From: Pontiellaceae bacterium B12227
GTDB lineage: Bacteria > Verrucomicrobiota > Kiritimatiellia > Kiritimatiellales > Pontiellaceae
Assembly (NCBI GenBank): GCA_029432775.1
Contig: JAROAZ010000008.1
Span: 124,001 to 188,000, forward strand
Length of the DNA: 64,000 nucleotides
Reading direction: 5' to 3'
The notes below the pieces were generated by a model, which had not been told where the DNA came from, did not search any database, and was given only the letters and a program-made list of their open reading frames with translations. This document shows positions 1 to 49,627 of this stretch, one piece after another. Both the position numbers and the translations under genes were made by a program. Position 1 is the first letter of the stretch. Each line of letters opens with the position of its first letter.

Positions 1-551
1 CCTTCGCCACCGGTTACTGCATAGCGAGTGGTACGAGTTTCATCGACACCGCCGCTCTCCCCTCCCGGATACTTATGGGAACCAAAAAATTTAAGTGAAT
101 ATATTTTTGCAGGATCCAACCCGGCCAGCTTGAACGTAAAGTTTGTACCGGAACTGGCGGAAAAATAATCAAAGATCGCATTCGTTACCCCCAGATCGCC
201 AAGAGCCACCGCATTGAAGGTGGAATTCGTGACTTTGCTTACGAAATAATTCGGACTGTTTGTGTCGGCCGATGTTGCTCCGGCAGGTCCATTAAAACTG
301 TCGGTCCCATGGCCGTTGACCCGCAGCAGATGGATCGTACTGGCAGAGTTGACGGTAGTAACCATATTGGACGGATCGGCGCCAGCACCAACTTCGTTCC
401 AATAATTCCCGTTTTCATCCGGTTCCGATACGCTTAGCGAGCGATAGGCACCATCGTTACCGAAGTCCACCAAGATTTTCTCCGCATTGACCCCACTCCC
501 GAGTCCTAAAGCCGCGATCATCGCGACTACTGTTCTTATCTGATTCTTCAT
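1..551 (-). CDS. Secreted protein, 3' part outside window
   Basis: The gene reads leftward and is cut by the window edge; 183 codons are visible. The ATG at 549-551 is preceded by a good GGAGGT ribosome site about 8 nt away. The first ~22 residues form a signal peptide (basic start, hydrophobic VVAMIAALGLG core). The rest contains the words VDFGND, YWNEV, DSFNGPAG, LGDLGVTNA and FFGSHKY. The same words occur in the same order in the N-terminal half (about residues 205-330) of the GH87/CBM6 protein at 8710-12213, so this is a shared exported module, perhaps beta-sandwich and carbohydrate- or surface-binding. I do not recognise the family. It lies downstream of the glucan genes on the same strand, behind its own 230-bp gap with an inverted repeat, so it may be separately controlled. 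Confidence 0.8.
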   Translation of the reverse strand, partial: MKNQIRTVVAMIAALGLGSGVNAEKILVDFGNDGAYRSLSVSEPDENGNYWNEVGAGADPSNMVTTVNSASTIHLLRVNGHGTDSFNGPAGATSADTNSPNYFVSKVTNSTFNAVALGDLGVTNAIFDYFSASSGTNFTFKLAGLDPAKIYSLKFFGSHKYPGGESGGVDETRTTRYAVTGGE

Positions 552-40496: not shown

Positions 40497-42173
40497 CTAC
40501 TTTTTCGCGATACGGTTAAGGCCCGCAATGATGGCCTTGACGGCGGCCTGGTTAATATTGGAATCAGAACCAACTCCGTAAATTACAGCGGCCCCATCAA
40601 CTTCCAGCGGCACATATGCCATGGCCTTGGCATCGGCGCCCTCGCCGATCGCCTCTTCATCGTAGTCATGAACCTTGAAATCAAAATCAACCACATTGCG
40701 CATGGCATTCACAAAGGCCGAGATCGGACCGTTGCCGTCGGCCTCAACCGTTTGCTCTCCGCCGTTCACGGTCACCTTCACTTCGCCATGAATGAAGGTC
40801 GGATCATTGTCATCCGGGCGCGGCCAGTAACCGACGAGTTCATACGGCCCCTTAGGCGAAACAAACTCGCTTTGAAAAACCGAGTACACCTCATCGGCGC
40901 TGATTTCGCGGCCGACCTTTTCGCTGTAGCCCTGCACATATTTACTGAGCTCCGGCTGCATGGCCTTTGGAACTTCGATACCGAAATCCTGCTCGAGCAC
41001 CCACGCAATCCCGCCCTTCCCGGACTGGGAGTTAATACGGATGAGCCGCTCAAACTTACGACCGACGTCGGCCGGGTCGATATGAAGATACGGCACCTTC
41101 CAGCCCATACCGAAACGGTCCGGCGCTTCGCCCAGTTTGTGCACGCCTTTATTGATGGCGTCCTGATGTGAACCGGAGAATGCCGTAAAGGCATAGCTGC
41201 CCGCATAGGGCTGGCGGTAATAGATCGGCATGCCAGTCAAACGCTCAACGGTCTCCGCCACATGGCCGAGATCGGAAAAATCGATGCCCGTTTCGATGCC
41301 GCGCGAATAGAGGTTGCTGATGCAGGTAACGAGATCCACGTTGCCCGTGCGTTCGCCATGCCCGAAGAGTGTGCCTTCCACCCGGTCGGCGCCTGCCATG
41401 AGAGCCAGCTCGGTAGCAGCCACGGCCATGCCCTGGTCGTTGTGTGAATGGAGCGACACCATAATGCAATCCCGCTTTGAGAAATCGCGGCAGAACTTTT
41501 CAATCATGTCGGCATAGTGATTCGGCGGACGACGCTCCACCGTGGCCGGCAGATTCATGATCACCGGCTTTTCAGGCGTACCCTTGCCCCATGCTTCAAA
41601 CACGGCTTCGCAGAGCTCCACGGAGAAATCCACATCGGTATCGGTGTACTCTTCCGGCGAGAACTCGTAACGAATGTCCGACTCCGGCATCGCATCGGCG
41701 AGATCGCGGATCTGCTTCGTGGCAGCAATCGCCGTTTCAATGAGTTGCGGGCGCTCCATTCCGAACACCTGACGCATGTGGAGATCCGACGGAGCAATAT
41801 AGGCATGCACGATACCGCGCTTGCAGCCCTTGAACGCTTCGAGCGTACGTTCGATCAAATGCGGGCGCGACTGCGTGAGCCCCATAATGAATACATCATC
41901 GGGAATGAGATCTTCTTCGATGAGCTTACGGAAGAAATCGAATTCATCCTGACTGGCCGACGGGAAGCCGATTTCGATGTGCTTGAACCCGACATCGCAG
42001 AGCATTTTGAAGTATTCGAGTTTCTGATCCGGATCCATCGGATCAGGCAACGCCTGATTTCCATCACGCAGATCCACCGAACACCACTGGGGTGACTTCG
42101 TTATACTCTTCGACGGCCACTGGCGGTCGGGGAGATCGATCATCTCCGGGATTACATATTTTGGTACACTCAT
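40497..42173 (-). CDS. leuA: 2-isopropylmalate synthase (LeuA2 type)
   Basis: 558 residues; ATG at 42171-42173 with AGGAGA upstream. First committed step of leucine synthesis. The barrel begins with WCSVDLRDGNQALPDPM, where the metal-binding Asp and the catalytic Arg of the DRE-TIM family lie; SLHSHNDQGMAVA near residue 245 gives the HxH metal ligands, and GTLFGHGERTGNVD near 275 is the second signature. The C-terminal regulatory domain (~430-558) binds leucine in this family. The length and ending match the longer LeuA2 class found in actinobacteria and fungi. The upstream 270 bp holds a leucine-rich leader peptide and an attenuator, so leuA is controlled by leucine supply. Confidence 0.96.
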   Translation of the reverse strand: MSVPKYVIPEMIDLPDRQWPSKSITKSPQWCSVDLRDGNQALPDPMDPDQKLEYFKMLCDVGFKHIEIGFPSASQDEFDFFRKLIEEDLIPDDVFIMGLTQSRPHLIERTLEAFKGCKRGIVHAYIAPSDLHMRQVFGMERPQLIETAIAATKQIRDLADAMPESDIRYEFSPEEYTDTDVDFSVELCEAVFEAWGKGTPEKPVIMNLPATVERRPPNHYADMIEKFCRDFSKRDCIMVSLHSHNDQGMAVAATELALMAGADRVEGTLFGHGERTGNVDLVTCISNLYSRGIETGIDFSDLGHVAETVERLTGMPIYYRQPYAGSYAFTAFSGSHQDAINKGVHKLGEAPDRFGMGWKVPYLHIDPADVGRKFERLIRINSQSGKGGIAWVLEQDFGIEVPKAMQPELSKYVQGYSEKVGREISADEVYSVFQSEFVSPKGPYELVGYWPRPDDNDPTFIHGEVKVTVNGGEQTVEADGNGPISAFVNAMRNVVDFDFKVHDYDEEAIGEGADAKAMAYVPLEVDGAAVIYGVGSDSNINQAAVKAIIAGLNRIAKK

Positions 42174-42302
42174 TTAATCTCTCCTAAAATGGGGCATAAT
42201 CTAAACAACCCCGCTTCTCTATTCCATTCCATTCATATTTTTTCTAGCCACCTATGAACCGGGTTTCTATCTGAGTTCTTCCGTGTTTTATCCGTGGCCT
42301 AA

Positions 42303-42341
42303 AACCAAAAAACCTCCGCAGGTTGCCCTACGGAGGTTTTC
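42303..42341 (-). terminator. leuA attenuator (conditional terminator)
   Basis: On the minus strand AAAACCTCCG pairs with CGGAGGTTTT (10 bp), followed by TTTTTTGG. Strand 4 carries the decamer CCTCCGCAGG (plus strand, 42313-42322), which is repeated exactly at 42379-42388 within the leader peptide. The leader copy can therefore pair with strand 3 (42326-42336) instead and prevent the terminator. Confidence 0.85.
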
Positions 42342-42364
42342 AAAAGAGTTGTCTTTTCAGCAAC

Positions 42365-42445
42365 CTATAGGCAAACCGCCTCCGCAGGATCATTCCCATC
42401 GAGTAGTAGCAGGCCGAGTAGTAGATTGTTGAATTCGTGTTTCAT
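42365..42445 (-). CDS. leuL: leuA leader peptide, 26 residues, leucine-rich
   Basis: ATG at 42443-42445, stop TAG at 42365-42367. The product begins MKHEFNNLLLGLLLLDG: seven Leu codons in eight positions (CTA CTA CTC, Gly, CTG CTA CTA CTC). This is the classical layout of a leucine leader peptide. The decamer that can form the antiterminator lies in codons 19-23, after the Leu codons and just before the stop, so a ribosome stalled at Leu codons leaves it free, and one at the stop covers it. No good ribosome site is seen: the predicted transcription start is within a few bases of the ATG, so translation may be leaderless. Confidence 0.85.
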   Translation of the reverse strand: MKHEFNNLLLGLLLLDGNDPAEAVCL

Positions 42446-42455
42446 AACGGTGGGC

Positions 42456-42485
42456 AACATAGTTCCAATGGCTGGAACCTGTCAA
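42456..42485 (-). promoter_or_regulatory. leuL-leuA promoter with palindrome as spacer
   Basis: On the minus strand TTGACA (42480-42485), an 18-bp spacer and TATGTT (42456-42461). The spacer is almost exactly the dispersed palindrome (GTTCCA-N5-TGGAAC, 42462-42478). Transcription should start near 42445-42449, at or just before the leader ATG. Confidence 0.75.
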
Positions 42486-42512: not shown

Positions 42513-43604
42513 TCATAACAACGGCGCGCGTTTGTTATAATTTTCCAGCAGCCGGTTTTTCAGTGCGTTGGTATTCGACGCATCCGGTTTGTGCAGGGCA
42601 ACTTCAGTCAAAAGCGCAACAAGCGATTCAAAGTCGCGAAGATCAATCTGCTCCGGAGCAATGGCCGTTTTTCCCATATTGTGATAATTCCCGAGCGGCA
42701 GGCAGACCGCGCAGGTTTGATAGCCCAGCAACGCCAGCCCCGTCGACTCGCAACTCCCGCCGGGCATGAGTGACTCGACAAAGTGCAGGGTCTTATCTTT
42801 TAACTTCAGCTCCCGCGCAGTTTTCCGAAGGTTGGAAGTCAGCTCCGGATTAAATACGGTGGTGGCATCGCCCACGCGCACAATGGCGCCCTGCCCCAGT
42901 TTTGCATTCGGTTGCGCCTTCGATGCTTCGATGCCCAGAACCGGCCAAGCTGGTTCAATCAATTTATTGTTTGCGGCGGCAATGGCCCCGACAAAGCCGA
43001 CCTCTTCCGCGCGAGTCAACAAACCATGCACCGTGCGCCGGCACCCCTCTTCTTTCAGCCGAGCCAGTGCCAGCAGAATGGAAGCCACGCCGCAGAGATC
43101 GTCCGCAACCCGGAGATTGAGTTTATTCCCGCTCTTCCGCCAGACCGGCAGGTCCCACATCCCCAAGGTGCCTTTCGGAAGATCAGCAACCTGATCCAGC
43201 TTGATCCGACACTTCAGAAAACCGATTTCTTTATTGCGCCGAATGAACTGAATCGTTCCAGAAACCGGAGTTCCAGGCCTTGGAAAAAATTGAACACGGG
43301 CTTCAGGAAAATAGCTTTCGGCCACCCCGCCGCGGAACCAGGCTTGCACCGTTGAACCGCGCCGACTGATCACCTCGAATCCGGGATGATCCATATGTGC
43401 CTGCAGTACCCAGGGATTCCGGGGCTTCCGCCCCCGACCTTTACAAGTCAGCAGGATGTTCCCGGACGGGTCCTGTTGGAAACCGATGCCCTGTTCCTGC
43501 GCCCAGGATTGTATAAACCCTTGCACATTGGATTCGCAGAACGGTGCCGTCGGCAGCGAAACCACATCCTTGAGCAGCGTAATTTCTTTTTTATTCATAC
43601 CCAT
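42513..43604 (-). CDS. M42-family aminopeptidase
   Basis: 363 residues; ATG at 43602-43604 (or the second Met at 43598). Cytoplasmic, co-catalytic metal aminopeptidase fold. Metal ligands: His/Asp in LQAHMDHPGF near residue 70, Asp in RVADDLCGV near 168, Glu pair in TRAEEVGFVGA near 203 (catalytic and ligand), Asp/Glu position in LGIEASK near 227, and His in NYHNMGK near 315. Family members trim peptides from the N-terminus. It is transcribed toward leuA but ends 68 bp before the leuL start, next to the leuL promoter. Exact palindrome copy at 43271 and a variant at 42823. Confidence 0.88.
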   Translation of the reverse strand: MGMNKKEITLLKDVVSLPTAPFCESNVQGFIQSWAQEQGIGFQQDPSGNILLTCKGRGRKPRNPWVLQAHMDHPGFEVISRRGSTVQAWFRGGVAESYFPEARVQFFPRPGTPVSGTIQFIRRNKEIGFLKCRIKLDQVADLPKGTLGMWDLPVWRKSGNKLNLRVADDLCGVASILLALARLKEEGCRRTVHGLLTRAEEVGFVGAIAAANNKLIEPAWPVLGIEASKAQPNAKLGQGAIVRVGDATTVFNPELTSNLRKTARELKLKDKTLHFVESLMPGGSCESTGLALLGYQTCAVCLPLGNYHNMGKTAIAPEQIDLRDFESLVALLTEVALHKPDASNTNALKNRLLENYNKRAPLL

Positions 43605-49485: not shown

Positions 49486-49581
49486 TCACTTCAATCACCC
49501 GGGGTGCCTTTCCAATGGTTTGGAATGAGCTGAGATTATACCCGTTGAACCTGATCCGGATCATGCCGGCGAAAGGAAGCG
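49486..49581 (+). promoter_or_regulatory. TPP riboswitch (THI box)
   Basis: Conserved elements in order: GGGGTGCC (49501-49508), a variable stem containing a palindrome-like TTCCAATGGTTTGGAA, GAGCTGAGAT, ACCCGTTGAACCTGATC, GGATCATGCCGGCGAAAGGA. Binds thiamin pyrophosphate. It lies upstream of thiS-thiG-thiH with a terminator as expression platform, so it should switch the operon off when TPP is plentiful. Confidence 0.93.
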
Positions 49582-49595
49582 TGGAGCATTTTTCC

Positions 49596-49627
49596 AGCGT
49601 TTCCGGGTTCCGGGAACGCTTTTTTTG
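49596..49627 (+). terminator. Riboswitch-controlled terminator
   Basis: AGCGTTTCCG pairs with CGGGAACGCT (one G-T pair), followed by a run of seven T. It ends 14 bp before thiS. Confidence 0.88.

Follow-up and report, generated by a model that had tools for sequence, protein, structure and literature searches.

A probable leucine attenuator preceding leuA in the Pontiella group of Kiritimatiellota, with related forms in a neighbouring family and in Phycisphaerae

Does the short Leu-rich reading frame that precedes leuA in Pontiellaceae bacterium B12227 control that gene by attenuation, with ribosome position deciding between two mutually exclusive RNA helices? The locus lies in a 64,000-nt stretch of the genome (the window), for which an earlier note had proposed a leucine attenuator that chooses between an antiterminator and a terminator and had pointed to the CTA codons of its leader. 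Conservation, covariation in the terminator and a model of RNA folding around the ribosome support this proposal, and we consider the feature very probably to be a ribosome-mediated leucine transcription attenuator of leuA. The host was correctly taken to have a PVC-type genome: it falls in a genus-level group that includes Pontiella (Kiritimatiellota), and its nearest named relatives are Pontiellaceae B12219, B1224 and P. sulfatireligans.

Anatomy of the leuA leader region

All elements of the locus lie on the minus strand and follow one another, 5′ to 3′, as a promoter, a gap of 10 nt, the leader ORF, a short spacer, a terminator hairpin with its T-run, and leuA. The putative controlled gene (40497–42173) encodes a 2-isopropylmalate synthase of 558 aa, identified by its match to NF002991 (720 bits against a cut-off of 455) and by its catalytic and LeuA_dimer domains; it is followed by aroE rather than leuBCD. 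Upstream, on the same strand as leuA, is an M42-peptidase gene (42513–43604). The predicted promoter is of the sigma-70 type, with a consensus match TTGACA-N18-TATGTT at 42456–42485. The leader ORF (MKHEFNNLLLGLLLLDGNDPAEAVCL; 42365–42445) has the 26 codons described in the earlier note plus a TAG stop, and its LLLGLLLL block occupies codons 8–15 (CTA CTA CTC GGC CTG CTA CTA CTC; 42401–42424). CTA indeed makes up four of the block's seven Leu codons and is also the final codon of the ORF, giving five of eight overall.

Four RNA segments can be distinguished. Segment 1 (CTCGATGGGA, 42394–42403) lies at the end of the Leu block and forms the 5′ arm of a small protector hairpin in the 19-sequence consensus structure described below. 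Segment 2 (42379–42388), within the leader ORF, and segment 4 (42313–42322), the 3′ arm of the terminator, are exact copies of one decamer, CCTCCGCAGG on the plus strand and CCTGCGGAGG in the transcript. Segment 3 (CCTCCGTAGG, 42327–42336) can pair with either copy, with one G-U pair in each case, which confirms the common partner suggested previously. Because the leader holds an exact 10-nt copy of the terminator 3′ arm, the two compete for a single 5′ arm, as antiterminator (2:3) or terminator (3:4). The terminator (42308–42341) has arms AAAACCTCCGTAGG and CCTGCGGAGGTTTT around a GCAA loop, is followed by a T-run, and stands about 134 nt from the leuA ATG. The T-run had been recognized before, but the stem is longer than the 10 bp first ascribed to it, with 11 pairs around the decamer and 15 when the A/U flanks are counted.

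This combination of elements is not readily produced by chance. When both strands of the window were scanned mechanically, 10 strong terminators emerged, of which exactly one has upstream of it both a Leu-run ORF and a repeat of 9 nt or more from its own 3′ arm. Among the 150 terminators found in 200 Markov-simulated windows, one had a Leu-run ORF, none had the repeat and none had both. CTA accounts for 3.0% of the 1726 Leu codons in the genes of the window and for 52 of 130 (40%) in the leaders of 19 congeneric loci; the latter are kin, and these counts are thus not independent.

The spacing between promoter and leader is also nearly constant. Exactly 10 nt lie between the −10 hexamer and the leader ATG at 18 of the 19 congeneric loci, and 9 nt at the remaining one; TTGAC stands 17–18 nt from the −10 element. 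If transcription starts 6–8 nt past the −10 element, where we infer the start sites to lie, the 5′ untranslated region would be 2–5 nt long. A near-leaderless leader ORF is thus predicted, and it would be the most unusual trait of the attenuator. In a neighbouring family of the same order the corresponding distance, read by eye, is about 9–14 nt; the leaders of Phycisphaerae have longer 5′ untranslated regions, some with a purine-rich site.

A further element lies just upstream of leuA, at 42191–42226 (minus strand). It consists of TGGAAT or TGGATA, 17 nt and TAGATT, the second of these boxes lying within a GGGG..CCCC dyad (GGGGTTGTTTAGATTATGCCCC). This is the sole exact copy of the pattern in the genome; about 20 congeneric loci share the element, including loci with other sequence inserted alongside. 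It has the look of an additional leuA promoter or operator, one independent of the attenuator.

Conservation in congeners and more distant relatives

Two questions bear on whether these elements act together: (i) are they retained as a unit in related genomes and (ii) do the alternative helices change in a compensatory manner. For the first, the leader, segment 2 and the terminator are found together ahead of leuA at 19 loci of the genus-level group; the encoded peptides follow the pattern M[KR]NEFNNLLLGLLL(L)AGNDPVEAVCL, in which the C-terminal VCL is also conserved. Nine further loci in the neighbouring family retain a divergent arrangement. The earlier note had named loss of the leader in relatives as evidence that would count against it; retention is instead what we observe. 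There are exceptions: the leader is absent from two 1.2-Mb congener genomes (L024 and L025) and missing at L096 in the neighbouring family, and one congeneric locus (L021) has lost the Leu codons by deletion but keeps the terminator and the last part of the ORF.

For the second question, alignment of the 19 congeneric sequences (A1) shows helix 1 of the terminator to be 99.3% paired with three doubly changed pairs, a covariation score matched by one of 500 shuffles. The antiterminator is paired in 88% of cells, compared with 34–61% for slid versions of the helix, but has no double changes beyond those in shuffles, so its support in these 19 loci comes from complementarity and conservation rather than covariation. 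RNAalifold on the same sequences recovers the terminator and a small hairpin, CTCGCTGGGA/TCCTGCGGAG, which corresponds to the protector and has one pair doubly changed in four sequences. Pairs were counted separately because RNAalifold cannot display the alternative fold.

Some other pairings and genes were also noticed. A long pairing of the FNN codons with GGTTGCTGA, past the stop codon, is complementary in most congeners, but its covariation does not rise above that of shuffles and it was rejected. A hairpin GGTTG..CAACC after the stop was sighted by eye; it is poorly placed by the automatic alignment and was left uncounted. At L008 and L017 (L036), an extra ORF, of cupin type by eye, lies between the terminator and leuA, and an attenuator there would therefore govern that ORF too.

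In the neighbouring family, the nine leaders preceding leuA read MxxxFNSLELLLLAGETLREFCAC, and the terminator has the different sequence AACCTCTCCGCAxxCCGGAGAGGTT, matching a segment 2 of CTGCGGGAG. At the L097 locus an in-frame TAA directly after LLLLAG shortens the leader and the downstream RNA segments are intact, which argues that the C-terminus of the peptide is dispensable.

A related form precedes leuA at 13 distinct loci in Phycisphaerae (Planctomycetota), with the leader M[IV]R[QRH]xx[SN]LxLxLLxGLLLR-stop. Here the first codons (GATCCGTCA) pair with a region spanning the stop codon (TGACGGATC), and the latter pairs in turn with the 5′ arm of the terminator. In the alignment of these 13 sequences (A2), all nine pairs of the 1:2 helix are formed in all 13 sequences, two of them doubly changed (a result reached by 22 of 500 shuffles). 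The 2:3 and 3:4 helices are both 90% paired; the former has four doubly changed cells (six of 500 shuffles) and the latter 13 (0 of 500). These compensatory changes directly support the three-way choice in the related form; in the window's own group it is supported by complementarity and conservation. Of the two alignments, only that of Phycisphaerae shows covariation in 2:3.

The type of leuA involved is patchy in distribution: of 288 genomes in the class to which the window belongs, 40 have it, as do 16 of the 198 in the class that contains a Phycisphaerae relative, and identity between the two phyla is about 68–69%. The patchiness and the cross-phylum identity hint that leuA has moved together with its leader. 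That the leader ORF in Kiritimatiellota is translated from the extreme 5′ end of its RNA, that the leader is shared with Phycisphaerae through such joint travel and that it arose independently of the proteobacterial leu attenuator is a tentative proposal that we regard as somewhat doubtful.

A different conserved type of leader was seen upstream of leuA in other Planctomycetota, in Lentisphaerota and in a Methylacidiphilales genome (L051, L054, L059, L068, L070, L074–L077, L080 and L081). These loci have short ORFs with [L/I]-R(CGA)-L-[T/S/R/C], for example CTTCGACTTA, often ahead of a terminator or hairpin; the loci that were scanned match no Rfam family. The planctomycete contig L051, which also carries leuA, has an Acido-Lenti-1 RNA at 67–112 (minus strand). 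Elsewhere in the window, a TPP riboswitch (49490–49596, plus strand; 62.5 bits) adjoins two tRNA-Glu genes.

Ribosome position and alternative explanations

In the mechanism that we propose, transcription would begin a few nucleotides ahead of the leader ATG, with the ribosome loading almost at the 5′ end of the transcript. When charged tRNA-Leu is ample, the ribosome would cross the Leu block to the stop codon and cover segment 2; segment 3 would then pair with segment 4 and transcription would end before leuA. When charged tRNA-Leu is scarce, above all the isoacceptor for the rare CUA codon, the ribosome would stall on codons 8–15 with its leading edge short of segment 2, the 2:3 helix would form before segment 4 is made, and polymerase would read through to leuA. 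The translation of the ORF, the stalling and the response to leucine are thus presumed steps of this scheme.

To model the position of the ribosome, the RNA downstream of it was folded at equilibrium, with the A site placed at each codon and the RNA cut off where segment 3 ends, so that segment 4 was still absent. Lacking segment 4, the window RNA folds as the antiterminator. With the A site at codons 2–16, a stretch that spans the entire Leu block, the probability of 2:3 is 0.87–0.95; it drops to 0.10 at codon 18 and to 0 from codon 20 to the stop. Averaged over the 19 loci, it is 0.75 on the Leu codons and 0 at the stop, the zero being partly by construction because segment 2 then sits behind the ribosome edge; values are similar for footprints of 9–18 nt, and the neighbouring family and Phycisphaerae behave in the same way. 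The control codons are thus sited, in the model, such that a stall on them would free segment 2 and a ribosome at the stop codon would cover it. Without a ribosome, 2:3 has low probability in 13 of the 19 loci, most likely because the consensus small hairpin masks segment 2. For the window's own RNA it is 0.93, the 1:2 protector being too weak to win, and the untranslated state would therefore read through, unlike textbook superattenuation.

Could the terminator instead be a mere 3′ end of the M42-peptidase transcript, with the Leu-rich ORF incidental and leuA served by its own downstream promoter? The peptidase gene does precede the terminator on the same strand, and the conserved promoter-like element at 42191–42226 could be that promoter. 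This account must nevertheless accommodate a strong predicted promoter between the peptidase gene and the leader ORF, as well as the retention of the ORF, the CTA bias and segment 2 at all 19 loci despite varying upstream sequence. A plain terminator, moreover, needs no upstream copy of its 3′ arm, and such a copy is found again in Phycisphaerae and in the neighbouring family, each time with other sequence. We give this explanation very little credence.

Direct reading of the leader RNA by a protein or ligand, as suggested for the actinobacterial LEU element, has a slim chance of being correct. The leuA leader of Actinobacteria has Leu codons, and its mutants are reported not to behave as in classical attenuation (PMC1262725); in our alignment, nearly invariant nucleotides occur outside the main helices (A1 columns 31–33 and 74–76). 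However, the conserved part has the character of a translated frame in which the number of Leu codons varies and a rare codon is favoured, and these Leu codons sit at positions where stalling would release segment 2. No aptamer-like unpaired core is conserved, and Rfam gives no riboswitch or T-box. That the peptide acts in trans, as reported for peTrpL of Sinorhizobium meliloti, rather than through attenuation in cis, seems scarcely credible. The conserved VCL would suit such a role, but the codons for these residues coincide in part with conserved RNA segments, a possible reason for their conservation, and the L097 leader is cut after LLLLAG with the downstream RNA segments remaining. Cis-acting, ribosome-mediated attenuation is therefore the reading that we retain.

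Implications and relation to known leader systems

The lineages, the predicted near-leaderless leader ORF and the patchy distribution with leuA across two phyla appear to be new. We found no earlier report of such a leader in Kiritimatiellota or Phycisphaerae, although a mention of PVC bacteria in the broad attenuator survey of Lopatovskaya et al. 2010 (Mol Biol 44:128) is possible; in the PVC literature we found only a TrpL annotation in Chlamydia, itself doubted (PMC7755916). No such leader lies ahead of ilvB, trpE or hisG of the same genome, so that it is not a general habit among the genes tested. A covarying attenuator in two PVC phyla, with no detectable homology to the proteobacterial one, would point to an older or a repeated origin. 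It would also imply tight coupling of transcription and translation at leuA, which has hardly been studied in such organisms, and could furnish a leucine-responsive part for Pontiella genetics.

Outside Proteobacteria, where the earlier note did not expect this type of control, comparable leaders are in fact published for Actinobacteria and Staphylococcus. Rfam searches at the leader gave no match to RF00512 (Leu_leader) even at E up to 10, and no T-box, riboswitch or other family; the best-scoring leader family, His_leader, reached 25.6 bits against a threshold of 49. The enterobacterial leuL (RF00512) nonetheless has the same logic, with a Leu-rich ORF, rare CUA codons and exclusive antiterminator and terminator helices before leuA, and the leu attenuator of Salmonella is reportedly blunted when CUG replaces CUA (Carter et al., cited in PMC1183508). 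The Pontiella-group leader differs from leuL in its lack of detectable homology, its predicted near-leaderless ORF, its shorter protector and the order of leuA followed by aroE.

In Actinobacteria, classical attenuators have been predicted at trp, trpS and leuS (PMC1262725), and Streptomyces has leaderless Leu-rich leaders at leuA (leuL1) and leuS (leuL2) (PMC8079986). These leaders and the LEU element resemble the present one in placing a Leu-rich leader before leuA, translated there without a 5′ untranslated region and here, by prediction, with almost none. The actinobacterial leuA leader, however, has no typical intrinsic terminator and a proposed pseudoknot, whereas here we find a strong terminator and the 2:3 alternative; this terminator does not fit an element of the LEU type, which lacks one and in which the Leu run pairs with the leuA Shine-Dalgarno sequence. 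A further such leader outside Proteobacteria is that of Corynebacterium ilvB (PMC10272879). The ilv-leu operon of S. aureus has a Leu-responsive attenuator with experimental support (PMC5794164) and shares with the present locus a 26-aa leader, Leu codons and a terminator, but it has mixed Ile and Leu codons, an antiterminator that sequesters the U-tract, a ribosome binding site and a position before ilvD. The S. meliloti trpL attenuator (PMC7298713) is similar in that its transcript begins at the leader AUG; it differs in responding to tryptophan, in preceding trpE(G) and in belonging to Alphaproteobacteria. If the near-leaderless leader is confirmed, attenuation here, like that of S. meliloti trpL and Streptomyces, would keep its timing with no Shine-Dalgarno site.
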